The translations under genes were made by a program, and so were the position numbers. The notes under the pieces are model-generated. The model ran no database searches. It saw nothing but the letters and a program-made list of their open reading frames with translations, and was not told the DNA's origin. Positions 2,883-7,796 of a stretch of 20,175 nt of DNA are shown in pieces. Every line of letters begins with the position of its first letter. Positions within the stretch are counted from its first letter, which is position 1. This DNA is from a virus: IMG/VR virus record IMGVR_UViG_3300028178_000027, positions 1-20,175 of that record, one strand, 5' to 3'.

Positions 2883-3835
2883 TTTCTAAGCCCAATAATT
2901 GCCCCGCGGATATTATCCCCATAAAATAAACAAGGGCTTGGCCAAGCAGTAAAATCAATTGTATCTGCAACTTCAAGAACTGTTAATAAATGTTGACGGT
3001 TAAAAGAACCATCGTTTACTATATCTTCGATAAAATATTCTGCCCCACCATCGTCAGTTTCTGATGTTGATATTCGACCTTCTTTAAATAGGTTTACTCT
3101 ATCAAACGTATCTGTAAATGGTTTTAAATCCTCAAGACATTGCACTAATAATTTTGGAAACTTAGACTGGATTGATTCTTTATTTAACACGTTAGCAAGG
3201 TCTGGCCATTCTGTACTATACGTTTGACTGCATAGCCAACGATTACCACTAAAATGAAATGTGATTCTATTTTCACTTACTTGCAAATATTCGGGCTCTT
3301 CGTTAATTCGGATAAGCTCGCTAATAGCTGCTTTCGGGACGTTGACTGTAATTGGAAAATCAAAACCAAGCCATGACTCTACAAGAGCAATATTATTTGT
3401 CGCATACGCAGACTGCCCTTTAAATAATATACCACGAGACCAAGCCCGTGAAGCGTCCTCTGATATAAATGGTGAAATACTTTTAATCGCTTGCAATAGT
3501 TTTCCATTTAATGCTACTTTTTCACCTTCGGGTGTAATTTCTGGATAGTTTTCTGGCGGTAAGCAATCAACCAGTGCTTTAAAGTTCCCTGACTTAATAC
3601 TAAGTTTTCCTTTAGCTGTTACATGAAGTGCAATAACATCTTCGCACGTTTGAATAGCTTTCATAAACTGCTCGGCTTTAGGTGTAATGTCTAAATCCAT
3701 GTCAATTGGGCCACATAGGCCAATTGTTCCATTAAACCCCTTGATTGTTTTATTAGCAATTCTAAAATGGGTTAAGCCTTGAACAATTTCTTTTTTGCCA
3801 ACTGCCCCAGCAACAAACTTTAAGTCTTTAAGCAT
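2879..3835 (-). CDS. DnaN-like DNA polymerase sliding clamp
   Basis: The 318-residue product looks like a divergent beta-clamp, the ring that tethers the polymerase to DNA. Support is weak in single motifs but consistent along the length: ALVDCLPPENYPEI (87-100) resembles the clamp segment leading to the 'FP' turn; AYATNNIALVES (143-154) matches the 'A-T-D/N-x-x-R/L' strand; the segment at 187-215 ends in a clamp-like W/YPDL; and the C-terminus ends in a short strand and LRK like the clamp's 'MPMR' end. It is shorter than E. coli DnaN (366 residues). Its position between dpdA and the polymerase, with TAATG overlap upstream and ATGA overlap downstream, fits a processivity factor. An alternative is an unrelated phage protein of the same fold. 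Confidence 0.72.
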   Translation of the reverse strand: MLKDLKFVAGAVGKKEIVQGLTHFRIANKTIKGFNGTIGLCGPIDMDLDITPKAEQFMKAIQTCEDVIALHVTAKGKLSIKSGNFKALVDCLPPENYPEITPEGEKVALNGKLLQAIKSISPFISEDASRAWSRGILFKGQSAYATNNIALVESWLGFDFPITVNVPKAAISELIRINEEPEYLQVSENRITFHFSGNRWLCSQTYSTEWPDLANVLNKESIQSKFPKLLVQCLEDLKPFTDTFDRVNLFKEGRISTSETDDGGAEYFIEDIVNDGSFNRQHLLTVLEVADTIDFTAWPSPCLFYGDNIRGAIIGLRK

Positions 3836-4755
3836 TAAAATAACTCCTGAACATAAGCTTTGAATATTTTACTTTGTTTAGCGTTCACTATTGCATTTAT
3901 CATACCATATGACCAAAGATTATAAGCAGCACGAGACTCATATATTGTGGATAACCGTTCGTAGGTAAAACCCTGCTCTTCTAGCATTTTAAAAAGAGCG
4001 TCCTGCTCAATAGCACTTAATGTCGTAGCGTGTTGGTTTTGGACGTGCCTAGATGGCGACTTGCTTGAAACAGAAATTGGGCCATACTTTGGAGTAACAA
4101 TACTACCAAACGCAGCGGACTGAATCCATGAAGACGAGTCCACACTATACCACGGATACCGTTGCATAACAGGAATAGCAGTAATACCAAAAGCATGAAC
4201 CTTAAGTCTTGGTTTCCCGCTTGAATCTGTTAAATACTCGTCCCATAGTTTATCTAACCAACGAATAAGGACATCGCTAGACTTTCCAACCATACCACCA
4301 AGAGTGATATAATCGTAATTTTTTACATAGTATTCTAAATAACGGTTATCCTCGCCATAATGGAAGCACGGCAATGGTCTAACACCTAGCTCTTGCATTG
4401 ACATTTGATTTCTATATGTTTGTAATGGGTCGCCAATTCCATCCAAAACAGAAGCCATAACAGCACCATCTTCAACTCGGATTATATCTCCGTTTCGTTT
4501 AATATAATCGCAATATGTTGGTAAATCAATTTCTACACCTAAAGTGAATGCTGAGAATGCGCCAGAGTCAAGAAATACTTTTGCGTTATCCGCCCTCATT
4601 TCGTCAACATATTTTTGTTTGTCAACATAATGGTATGACTCTAAAATGTTAGGTAAATTCCGGACAAGGGATTGCTCATGCTCTGTTAGCTTTAAATACC
4701 GATTTTGCCCGGGCTTATACCCGTTACCATAAACAGCGGCAACAAATAGATTCAT
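3835..4755 (-). CDS. dpdA: DpdA-like 7-deazaguanine DNA transglycosylase
   Basis: This 306-residue protein belongs to the phage branch of the tRNA-guanine transglycosylase superfamily that acts on DNA, exchanging guanine for a 7-deazaguanine base. Three aspartate sites align in order with those of TGT: FLDSGAFSA (D63), corresponding to the substrate-binding DSGGFQ site; VLDGIGDP (D105); and YSVDSSSW (D206), in the place of the nucleophile. LGGMVG (152-157) and HAFGIT (187-192) also match the TIM-barrel core. The C-terminus has no CxCxxC zinc motif, unlike bacterial TGT, and the protein has only two cysteines. The gene is next to folE, queD, queC and queE, which make the base, and only one base separates it from the folE stop. 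Its own ribosome binding site is weak, so translation probably depends on coupling. Confidence 0.88.
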   Translation of the reverse strand: MNLFVAAVYGNGYKPGQNRYLKLTEHEQSLVRNLPNILESYHYVDKQKYVDEMRADNAKVFLDSGAFSAFTLGVEIDLPTYCDYIKRNGDIIRVEDGAVMASVLDGIGDPLQTYRNQMSMQELGVRPLPCFHYGEDNRYLEYYVKNYDYITLGGMVGKSSDVLIRWLDKLWDEYLTDSSGKPRLKVHAFGITAIPVMQRYPWYSVDSSSWIQSAAFGSIVTPKYGPISVSSKSPSRHVQNQHATTLSAIEQDALFKMLEEQGFTYERLSTIYESRAAYNLWSYGMINAIVNAKQSKIFKAYVQELF

Positions 4756-4756
4756 T

Positions 4757-5695
4757 TTAGTTACGGCAAGCTGCTAAAAACTCAGCCCGTGTTTCTGGTT
4801 TTGTTTTCATTGCTCCGCGCAATGCTGTAGTAATTGTTTCACTACTTTGATTACCAACACCACGGGATTCAATACACATATGACGCGCTGTTAAGTAAAC
4901 ACCAACACCAATCGGGTTCAAGTGTTCCCACATTGCATTCGCTATTTGGTTTGTTAAACGCTCTTGGACTTGTAACCGTCTTGAAAAGACTTCTACAATT
5001 CTATCCATTTTAGATAAGCCCAATACTTTTTTATCAGGAATATAAGCAACGGTCACAAAACCAAAAATAGGAGCAATATGATGCTCGCAATGGCTATAGA
5101 CAGGGATATTTCTACGAATAACCATTTCATCCGAGTCCTCAGCTCCATCTTCGAAACTTTTAAAAATGGATTTGATATCGCTGTCTGAATACTTATATCC
5201 ACTAAACCACTCACCGAGTGCTTTTTGGTATCTTTTAGGAGTTTCCAGCAAACCTTGACGATTTGGATTTTCTCCAATATATTGAAATACCCGTACAACA
5301 TTATCAGTAAAGCTTTCGTCCGAGTTTTCATGTGAAACCTCCCAAGGAAATACAAACCAGCCATTTCGATACTCGTTTTTAAGGGTAATATCTCCCTTTT
5401 CAATTAAAGTAAAGAATGGTTTTTGTGGATATAAATCGCAGTAATGCTGCATTGTTTTTCCGCTGTCTAAAATATCATCAATGAAAAAATCAGCTTCGCT
5501 TGGATTTTCGGTAATCTTAAAGTCAATATATTTACGGATAGCATACATTGCGGGAATACCACCGCGAGGAATAGCATACGCTTTTAGATTTGAAATAAGA
5601 CTTTTATTTGATTCATAAATACTATAAATCTGGCCAGCAGTACGTTCTGCTAAGGATTGTAAAATATCATTTGTAATAATTGTTTTATTTGTCAT
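4757..5695 (-). CDS. folE: Phosphoribosyltransferase-GTP cyclohydrolase I fusion
   Basis: The C-terminal half (about residues 131-312) is a GTP cyclohydrolase I, which opens GTP to dihydroneopterin triphosphate, the first step to preQ0. It has the GLLETPKR entry motif (148-155), zinc-site SHCEHH (201-206; C203, H206) and RHMCIESRGV (271-280; C274), so it should be an active zinc enzyme. The N-terminal 120 residues are a phosphoribosyltransferase domain with AIPRGGIP (41-48), PRPP loop FIDDILDSGKT (71-81) and WFVFPWE (113-119), the last resembling the end of Gpt-type purine enzymes. I chose ATG at 5695: it has AAGG nine bases upstream and lies just after the queD stop. The longer frame from 5740 overlaps queD and lacks a ribosome binding site. 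The fusion is unusual; its N-terminal substrate is unknown. Confidence 0.9.
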   Translation of the reverse strand: MTNKTIITNDILQSLAERTAGQIYSIYESNKSLISNLKAYAIPRGGIPAMYAIRKYIDFKITENPSEADFFIDDILDSGKTMQHYCDLYPQKPFFTLIEKGDITLKNEYRNGWFVFPWEVSHENSDESFTDNVVRVFQYIGENPNRQGLLETPKRYQKALGEWFSGYKYSDSDIKSIFKSFEDGAEDSDEMVIRRNIPVYSHCEHHIAPIFGFVTVAYIPDKKVLGLSKMDRIVEVFSRRLQVQERLTNQIANAMWEHLNPIGVGVYLTARHMCIESRGVGNQSSETITTALRGAMKTKPETRAEFLAACRN

Positions 5696-5699
5696 TGTC

Positions 5700-6152
5700 T
5701 TAAACCTTAAATGAAGCGTGGCATTTAGCAGTTTCTTCAATAACTACTTTTTGCAAAGTAACACCAGTGCCAAGTAGTTGCTGAGGGCCAATTACTTGAA
5801 CTAAATATTGGCACATATTTTCAGCAGTCGGGTTGAATGGTACAAACACAATAGACTCGGAAAATATTAACTGTTCCGCTGGTTCTAGAAAAGCGGTTTC
5901 TTTAAGGCCTTTAATAAGACTATCGTTTTCCCATGCTAGGAACTTGTGATCCCAATTATTCTCGACCCACATACATAACTTTTCTTTAATAACAGAAAAA
6001 TCAATAACACGCCCTAAGCTGTCTAACTCGCCAACACATTCAAAATGAATACGGTAATTATGCCCATGCAAATGGCGACATTTATTTTCATGCCCAACTA
6101 CACGATGTCCACAACTAATATCGTGGTATCTCATTGCTTTTGTTCCGCTCAT
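5700..6152 (-). CDS. queD: QueD 6-carboxytetrahydropterin synthase
   Basis: This 150-residue enzyme of the PTPS/QueD family converts dihydroneopterin triphosphate, the FolE product, to 6-carboxy-5,6,7,8-tetrahydropterin in the preQ0 pathway. The zinc ligands are H16, H29 and H31, with the catalytic cysteine C25 in CRHLHGHN (25-32). FNPTAENM (about 106-113) and VIEETAKCHASF near the C-terminus (with the family's conserved Glu) complete the signature. The CxxxHGH arrangement marks QueD rather than eukaryotic PTPS. Its start codon overlaps the stop of the upstream 52-aa gene as ATGA, and GAGGTG lies just before it, so both coupling and a direct site are available. Length is normal for the longer QueD subgroup. 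Confidence 0.93.
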   Translation of the reverse strand: MSGTKAMRYHDISCGHRVVGHENKCRHLHGHNYRIHFECVGELDSLGRVIDFSVIKEKLCMWVENNWDHKFLAWENDSLIKGLKETAFLEPAEQLIFSESIVFVPFNPTAENMCQYLVQVIGPQQLLGTGVTLQKVVIEETAKCHASFKV

Positions 6153-6307
6153 AAAGTCACCTCTTTTCCGTTTATAATAAATGTTGATGGGAGTAAATGG
6201 TTACAGCGTGAAAACGCCTTTATATAACCCATAATTTCAGATTGGACTGCTGAGGAATATGGGATTATACTTTTTGGTTTTGTCTTTGGTGTACCACGGA
6301 TAGCCAT
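6149..6307 (-). CDS. 52-aa protein of unknown function in the preQ0 operon
   Basis: This 52-codon frame begins at the ATG ending at 6307 (protein starts MAIRGTPKTKPKS) and stops at 6149. It has a strong ribosome binding site (AAAGGA, 6-base spacing). It fills exactly the gap between queC and queD: its start is two bases from the queC stop, and its stop overlaps the queD start as ATGA. That fit is the main evidence that it is a real gene. The product is basic at the N-terminus (residues 4-13), with a central helix-like stretch (about 20-40) and one cysteine. I recognise no family. Its position suggests a role linked to deazaguanine synthesis or to DpdA, or merely a translational relay to queD. 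Confidence 0.75.
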   Translation of the reverse strand: MAIRGTPKTKPKSIIPYSSAVQSEIMGYIKAFSRCNHLLPSTFIINGKEVTL

Positions 6308-6309
6308 AA

Positions 6310-7104
6310 CTAATCCTTTCCTATTAAATACTCAACCGTATAGTTTGCTGATTTTGGTAATTCCATTAAGCCGTTGCGAACTGCTCGCATAACCAATGGA
6401 TCTGGAAAACCAGCTTCAAGGAAGCCTTGCGCTCGTAATACATTTGCATGGTTATTATCGCTTGGAGGGTACTTCCCGTCGTAGCTAGTATGCGTGTAAG
6501 CTAATGCTTCCCAGCAGCCTGGAAATGTGCGAGCTAGGCGTACTGTTTCCGCTTTAGACATATACATTAACGGTGTTAGTATTCTAACAACACCTGTTCC
6601 ACGATGGTCGTGGCCAAGTGCAGTATTGATATAATCTTCTGCTTTTGTAATAAATATGTCACGGCAATCGTCGTAATTAGCATTATCCATTTGGCAAACA
6701 CCAGTAACGATATTCTTAATACCTTTTGCTTCCGCTCTATTGGCTGCAATTGTTAAAAATAGTGCGTTACGCATTGGGACAAATGTTAATTCACGGCGAT
6801 TCCCAATTGTGGAATCCATTTGCTCAAAGTTATCGTATTTTTCTAATTCAATGCCTGGATTAGTTAATGGGGACATTGAAATTAAGCATTCCGGAACTTT
6901 AATAATTTCATGGTTATTAACACCTGCTATTTCTGCAACTTGGACGGCTGCTTTTATTTCAATTGCGTGTTTTTGCCCATAGTCGAAAGTAATTGCATGA
7001 ACCTCTTTAAATGTTTCTTTAGCCCAGAAAAGGCAAGTTGTTGAATCTTGCCCACCAGACAAAACAACAATAACAGACTCTTGTTTCAATCGTGCTATAT
7101 TCAT
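6310..7104 (-). CDS. queC: QueC-like preQ0 synthase lacking zinc cysteines
   Basis: This 264-residue PP-loop ATPase of the QueC family converts 7-carboxy-7-deazaguanine to preQ0 with ATP and ammonia, through an amide intermediate. The ATP-binding motif SGGQDS (16-21), FDYGQKH (40-46), FVPMRNALFLT (108-118) and TGVCQMD with YDDCRD (134-149) all match the family. The C-terminal zinc site does not: where E. coli QueC has TCYNG and a CxxCxxC cluster, this protein has TSYDG (206-210) and S215, N218 and N221. All four cysteines appear to be replaced while the flanking LRAQGF (223-228) remains aligned. It may fold without zinc, use D216 and H219, or have altered chemistry. It overlaps queE by one base (TAATG) and has no fused amidotransferase domain. 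Confidence 0.88.
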   Translation of the reverse strand: MNIARLKQESVIVVLSGGQDSTTCLFWAKETFKEVHAITFDYGQKHAIEIKAAVQVAEIAGVNNHEIIKVPECLISMSPLTNPGIELEKYDNFEQMDSTIGNRRELTFVPMRNALFLTIAANRAEAKGIKNIVTGVCQMDNANYDDCRDIFITKAEDYINTALGHDHRGTGVVRILTPLMYMSKAETVRLARTFPGCWEALAYTHTSYDGKYPPSDNNHANVLRAQGFLEAGFPDPLVMRAVRNGLMELPKSANYTVEYLIGKD

Positions 7105-7796
7105 TATTCTACTCCTATTAGTTTATGAACTTGGATACATAAGATATAATTATGCCGCATAACAGAACGTTTAGCAACGTCTAGGTTGAGGTTATTTTGA
7201 TGCACACTTTTGCTATCTTCAGGTTGAATATAAACAAGGGATCCTTGCGGTGCTTTAAATACGGAACCACTGTTCGGATGACCAAGTGCAACTAAAGGCA
7301 ACCCATCTATATCCACACTATCGCTGTTCACAACATATTTGTAAGCATAAATATGTTCTTTTAATTTTTTGTTAATTTCGCCTGTTTTTGGACTGCAAAT
7401 AATATAAACATTTCTATTCAGTTCTTGGAACAATGTCCCATTTGTTTCAATTTGGACAAGATACCCGCTAGATATTAAAATATCAGTTAATGGTACTAAA
7501 TTTTGTCTAAACGGCTCACCTCCAGTAATAACAATGAGTCTTCGTTTTGTTATATCAGCTGGTAGGTCTTTATGCAGTTGATGTATTTTATCAAGAATAG
7601 CAGACACGGGCATTAAAGAACGTTTTGTATATTCTGTATCACAATCAGGACATTGTAAATTGCAACCAGCTAAACGAATAAAGACAGCTGGCATACCAGA
7701 AAATATACCTTCCCCCTGAATTGTGTAAAAAATAGAATTTACTTGTAATGCACCGCTTACGGAAATGTCGCGGTTTTCGGGAAATTGATTATTCAT
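7104..7796 (-). CDS. queE: QueE 7-carboxy-7-deazaguanine synthase
   Basis: This 230-residue radical-SAM enzyme contracts 6-carboxytetrahydropterin to 7-carboxy-7-deazaguanine. The cluster motif CNLQCPDC (C45, C49, C52) binds the 4Fe-4S centre. FYTIQGEG (23-30) is the family's N-terminal signature, ITGGEP (about 90-95) is the SAM-binding motif, and ETNGT follows at about 117-121. It is the first gene of the operon, with AAGGA seven bases before ATG and an extended -10 promoter about 30 bases upstream. The terminator of the preceding transcription unit sits just behind that promoter. Length and motifs are normal. Confidence 0.93.
   Translation of the reverse strand: MNNQFPENRDISVSGALQVNSIFYTIQGEGIFSGMPAVFIRLAGCNLQCPDCDTEYTKRSLMPVSAILDKIHQLHKDLPADITKRRLIVITGGEPFRQNLVPLTDILISSGYLVQIETNGTLFQELNRNVYIICSPKTGEINKKLKEHIYAYKYVVNSDSVDIDGLPLVALGHPNSGSVFKAPQGSLVYIQPEDSKSVHQNNLNLDVAKRSVMRHNYILCIQVHKLIGVE

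Follow-up and report, generated by a model that had tools for sequence, protein, structure and literature searches.

Canonical QueC proteins, such as those of B. subtilis (3BL5), Pectobacterium (2PG3) and E. coli, have in common a fold, a PP-loop, substrate motifs, an essential tyrosine and their pathway neighbours, and a 2026 survey of the family treats the zinc motif C(x)8CxxCxxC as a hallmark (PMC13329287). The tyrosine is Y189 of the TCYNG loop in E. coli QueC, whose alanine mutant is inactive (PMC13329287), while in Cap9, a protein of the same PF06508 fold, the Y and D of the YxDC motif touch the base (PMC13279940). The product of the pathway, preQ0 (7-cyano-7-deazaguanine), is consumed by QueF (PMC6884629). 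Phages also use this pathway for modifying DNA, as seen for CAjan (dPreQ0) and 9g (dG+). No description of a zinc-less QueC was found in the literature searched, a set lacking several key papers. A similar replacement of a zinc-binding motif in a protein that is otherwise retained is seen in the zinc-less ribosomal protein paralogues (PMC5912738).

The window analysed here, a stretch of 20,175 nucleotides, comes from a metagenomic 20-kb viral contig that is itself a fragment (IMG/VR record IMGVR_UViG_3300028178_000027), and a megablast search with the whole window returned no near phage record. It encodes a QueC homologue that has the fold, PP-loop, substrate motifs and essential tyrosine of the canonical enzymes but differs from them in the absence of the zinc cysteines and in the presence of a C-terminal P..xNY extension (Table 1). 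The protein belongs to the family by its score against the PF06508 profile (173.3 bits, cut-off 22), and its AlphaFold2 model (mean pLDDT 89.6) finds B. subtilis QueC 3BL5 as best Foldseek match (E 1.3e-15, 36% identity). The gene lies in a same-strand run of QueE, QueC, a 52-aa ORF, QueD, a phosphoribosyltransferase-like domain fused to FolE, DpdA, a sliding clamp and a DNA polymerase. It is thus linked with queD, queE and folE, as canonical QueC is, and also with DpdA, as in the 7-deazaguanine DNA modification systems of phages.

Table 1. Position of the QueC gene, its motifs and its pathway neighbours in the window
Feature	Position	Strand	Basis
DpdA-like transglycosylase	3835..4755	-	phrog_887, E 1.3e-84
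Phosphoribosyltransferase-like domain fused to GTP cyclohydrolase I (FolE)	4757..5740	-	profile searches
QueD-like 6-carboxytetrahydropterin synthase	5700..6152	-	ORF list, profile search
52-aa ORF between QueC and QueD	6149..6307	-	ORF list
QueC homologue, 264 aa, without zinc cysteines	6310..7104	-	ORF list, PF06508 match, alignment
LPKSANY, residues 249-255, C-terminal P..xNY element	6340..6360	-	alignment
Predicted helix 219-231; N218 = N-cap, N221 = N3	6412..6450	-	AlphaFold2 model
S215-DN-N218-HA-N221, in place of CxxCxxC	6442..6462	-	alignment
TSYDG, T206-G210; first zinc cysteine = S207, Tyr = Y208, E. coli N190 = D209	6475..6489	-	alignment
YDDC substrate motif (YxDC), residues 144-147	6664..6675	-	alignment
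VPMRN motif (VPxRN), residues 109-113	6766..6780	-	alignment
YGQKHAIE motif (YxQxHxxE), residues 42-49	6958..6981	-	alignment
SGGQDS PP-loop, residues 16-21	7042..7059	-	alignment to E. coli QueC
QueE-like radical SAM protein, CNLQCPDC present	7104..7796	-	ORF list, profile search

When aligned to the E. coli enzyme, C188, C197, C200 and C203 correspond to S207, S215, N218 and N221, so that the canonical motif of PMC13329287 is absent. The remaining functional positions are all retained, including the equivalents of Y189 (Y208), K184 and the LR pair; the P of the canonical YPDC motif is D, as it also is in other phages. An alignment artefact can be excluded, since the flanking residues are invariant in relatives with and without the cysteines and since most viral relatives have the same loss with no partial cases. 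Nor is the gene decaying, given that a close pair of the same zinc-less group (L015/L045) shows a dN of 0.0067 against a dS of 0.36. An earlier note, made from the sequence alone, had described a QueC homologue on this stretch with an intact PP-loop and substrate motifs, TSYDG for TCYNG and none of the four zinc cysteines, and had read this as substitution rather than bad alignment; the alignments bear it out on each of these points, and the ORF lies at the coordinates given in the note, on the minus strand.

The four cysteines behave as a unit. Among 203 QueC homologues, collected by zinc-less queries and therefore biased in their frequencies, 114 have none and 89 have all four, and a search of the same set for intermediates with one to three cysteines found none. 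With the window counted, 94 of the 109 phage or viral relatives lack all four, a proportion subject to the same bias; they include the named phages MMDA13, HD01, Erebus, Iggy, RHEph04, 83AMN, Pan1, R5C, ZHS, ART, Me-ZS1 and ply2008005c. Sphingomonas phage MMDA13 and Pseudomonas phage Iggy, whose QueCs are 65% and 55% identical to that of the window, have its four losses, its T[SA]YDG loop, its extension and its gene cluster, the tail of the Iggy protein being much longer. Throughout the phage zinc-less group TCYNG becomes T[SA]YDG, the D rarely being S or C (L088, L097, L110). On the other hand, the cysteines are retained in the QueC of CAjan, in the aligned GR11A QueC and in the Gat-QueC of 9g, which has a fused amidotransferase domain. 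The 9g protein did not restore Q to E. coli delta-queC, a result for which channelling has been proposed as the cause. The C-terminal P..xNY element is found in 94/94 zinc-less viral QueCs and in 1/15 zinc-bearing ones (L030). Early-branching zinc-less QueCs of the phage type also occur on two contigs of bacterial MAG/SAG assemblies (L110, L170), which are probably viral contamination or prophage.

The zinc site seems to have been switched repeatedly. On a core tree built without the zinc region, for which sets smaller than the 167 reduced sequences (FastTree) were used, the zinc state switches nine or more times, many branches being weak and the exact count accordingly limited. A single clade of the zinc-bearing phage QueCs is rejected (p-AU 0.008, for a group picked after an earlier tree had been viewed). 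The zinc-bearing QueCs of L030 and L034 have cores whose best matches are zinc-less relatives (72% each); over the C-terminus, by contrast, they are closest to zinc-bearing L036, at 84% and 68% (against 50% and 47%). Judged from such sequence comparisons, the phage QueCs of L030, L034 and L102 look like chimeras with a swapped C-terminal module, the zinc cysteines lying in the C-terminus; L102 is a milder chimera-like case than the other two. Exchange of this module is a sign that either version can serve similar cores, and the natural swap makes the role of the QueC zinc directly testable.

A second zinc-less group is encoded on the chromosomes of bacteria, namely Rhodothermia, Cytophagales, a planctomycete and a Poribacteria MAG (L140, L141, L150, L151, L164, L205-L207 and L235-L246). 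These proteins carry T-D-Y-[NH]-G and LDN[PQ]AS signatures, with N-x-x-S instead of cysteines, and they group together on the tree (15/15 rows, support 0.886), separate from the phage group. In 15/15 sampled genomes, some of which may be incomplete, the zinc-less gene is the sole QueC match at E<=1e-10, and in 15/15 sampled bacterial genomes with this gene QueF scores above the cut-off, often within ~1 kb. Among the first five genomes QueA was found in 5/5 and QueF in 4/5, Adhaeribacter (G002) having the zinc-less QueC and QueA with no match to QueF. A second QueC match in the Poribacteria genome G005 was considered as a zinc form and rejected, as this copy is broken and, where it can be read, is most like the zinc-less gene. 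Since QueF uses preQ0 and no other QueC was found there, the bacterial enzyme most likely makes preQ0. This function may not carry over to the window protein, because the two are only ~40% identical and the bacterial forms have no C-terminal extension.

The predicted structure offers a candidate substitute for the metal. In the zinc-bearing L030 model a helix (212-224) begins directly after the Cys equivalent to N218, the residue modelled as N-cap in the window protein. At positions 200/203 of the alignment, the phage proteins have the pairs N-N (67), D-S (14), D-T (12) and D-N (1), and the bacterial zinc-less QueCs have N-S (20). N, D, S and T are typical helix-capping residues at such sites. 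The choice between N-N and D-S/T largely tracks clades and is not independent covariation. On the basis of the models, capping by N218 and N221 may have taken over from the metal. The C-terminal extension was also considered as a general compensator for zinc loss and rejected, as bacterial zinc-less QueCs end 14-18 residues past the LR arginine.

Taken together, these observations make it quite probable that the window encodes a zinc-independent preQ0 synthase QueC in a phage FolE-QueD-QueE-QueC-DpdA cluster, with helix capping in place of the zinc knuckle. FolE, QueD and QueE would provide 7-carboxy-7-deazaguanine, which QueC would adenylate twice and supply with ammonia to give preQ0, and DpdA would then swap guanine in the phage DNA for this base, probably guarding against restriction. 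In the usual enzyme the C-terminal zinc knuckle pins the TCY(N)G loop, with its essential tyrosine, to the start of the helix; in the window protein the side chains of N218 and N221 would cap the helix instead, and S207 and D209 in the loop as well as the C-terminal extension might add packing. What has changed thus seems to be the need for zinc and not the chemistry, and as far as sequence can indicate, the protein remains a QueC, altered at its zinc site, whose product is most likely preQ0. Of the two interpretations in the earlier note, independence of the fold from zinc has good support, from the repeated switching between similar cores with unchanged active sites, from a model that still folds as QueC without the ligands, and from the bacterial genomes with QueF in which the zinc-less gene is the sole copy found; there is no support for changed chemistry. 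Although the zinc motif serves as a hallmark of QueC, it appears to be dispensable in two groups, that of the phages and that of the bacteria, where it is the sole copy. This cautions against annotating QueC by its cysteines and provides an example in which helix capping may stand in for a structural metal site.

The form of changed chemistry that the note had proposed, in which the second dehydrating step is lost, the enzyme halts at 7-amido-7-deazaguanine and the phage DNA carries dADG, is unlikely. Some phages do contain dADG by routes that have not been worked out (PMC6884629, PMC8306585), and the cysteine loss adjoins the essential TCYNG tyrosine, but no active-site change accompanies it, the named catalytic and substrate-motif residues all being unchanged, and the sampled bacterial genomes with QueF yielded no QueC other than the zinc-less form. 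Moreover, dPreQ0 modification was reported for the DNA of Iggy, a phage with a QueC that shows the same four losses in the alignment (Olsen et al. 2023, as relayed in PMC11008142). Iggy therefore comes close to the case that, according to the note, would speak against its reading, a related phage QueC with the same losses that makes preQ0, although this evidence is weakened by the host, P. aeruginosa, which may itself supply preQ0. That the phage zinc-less QueCs yield a product other than preQ0, be it 7-amido-7-deazaguanine or another amidated form, with the dPreQ0 of Iggy derived from its host, is equally improbable. If it were true, the C-terminal module, all-or-none and swapped time and again, would act as an exchangeable cassette that determines the product.

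Somewhat less likely still is the replacement of zinc by another metal or ligand set, for example H205, D209, D217 and H219. H205 and H219 are invariant or nearly so and D209 is almost fixed in the zinc-less phage set, but zinc-bearing relatives already have both histidines together with the four cysteines, L088, L097 and L110 carry S or C in place of D209, and most of the bacterial zinc-less proteins seen have proline at the position of H219; no set of alternative ligands, such as the note had envisaged, is common to the phage and bacterial groups. There is little to recommend a catalytically dead protein or scaffold, with preQ0 coming from a host QueC. A host like P. aeruginosa probably encodes its own QueC. 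Some phages carry DpdA alone (PMC6884629), but the catalytic residues are invariant, the gene remains within its pathway cluster, and the dN/dS of the close pair L015/L045 is very low. Conjugation of a deazaguanine to protein, as by Cap9 or QatC, is scarcely credible even though QueC scaffolds have been reused in this way (PMC13329287, PMC13279940), given that Cap9 and QatC, which have the PF06508 fold and modify proteins or are proposed to do so, retain the zinc cysteines, that the FolE, QueD, QueE and DpdA neighbours indicate base synthesis, and that neither CD-NTase nor qat genes were identified among those proteins of this contig fragment that were scanned with Pfam and PHROGs.

The preferred reading, a zinc-independent preQ0 synthase, concerns QueC and not its neighbours. 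FolE retains SHCEHH and RHMC, and QueD retains the His/Cys of CGHRVVGHENKCRHLHGH, the likely metal residues of these families; zinc sparing across the whole pathway was therefore rejected. The ribosomal paralogues (PMC5912738) are alternative copies under zinc limitation, in contrast to the window QueC, which is a sole copy adjoining FolE and QueD proteins that still look metal-dependent.

Two further features of the cluster were observed. The N-terminal domain of FolE, of ~140 aa, has a phosphoribosyltransferase-like motif, FFIDDILDSGKT, and matches phrog_8995 (E 7.5e-9), its Pfam match being below threshold; of 110 FolE ORFs in the searched loci, 35 have such a domain fused, and 15 loci encode it as an ORF of its own. 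As an idea only, it might recycle the guanine freed by DpdA to GTP for FolE. The 52-aa ORF has one relative among the loci searched (L077, 45%), and eleven loci, MMDA13 among them, have a different small protein in or near the same spot, which in MMDA13 bears a QueF-like annotation.
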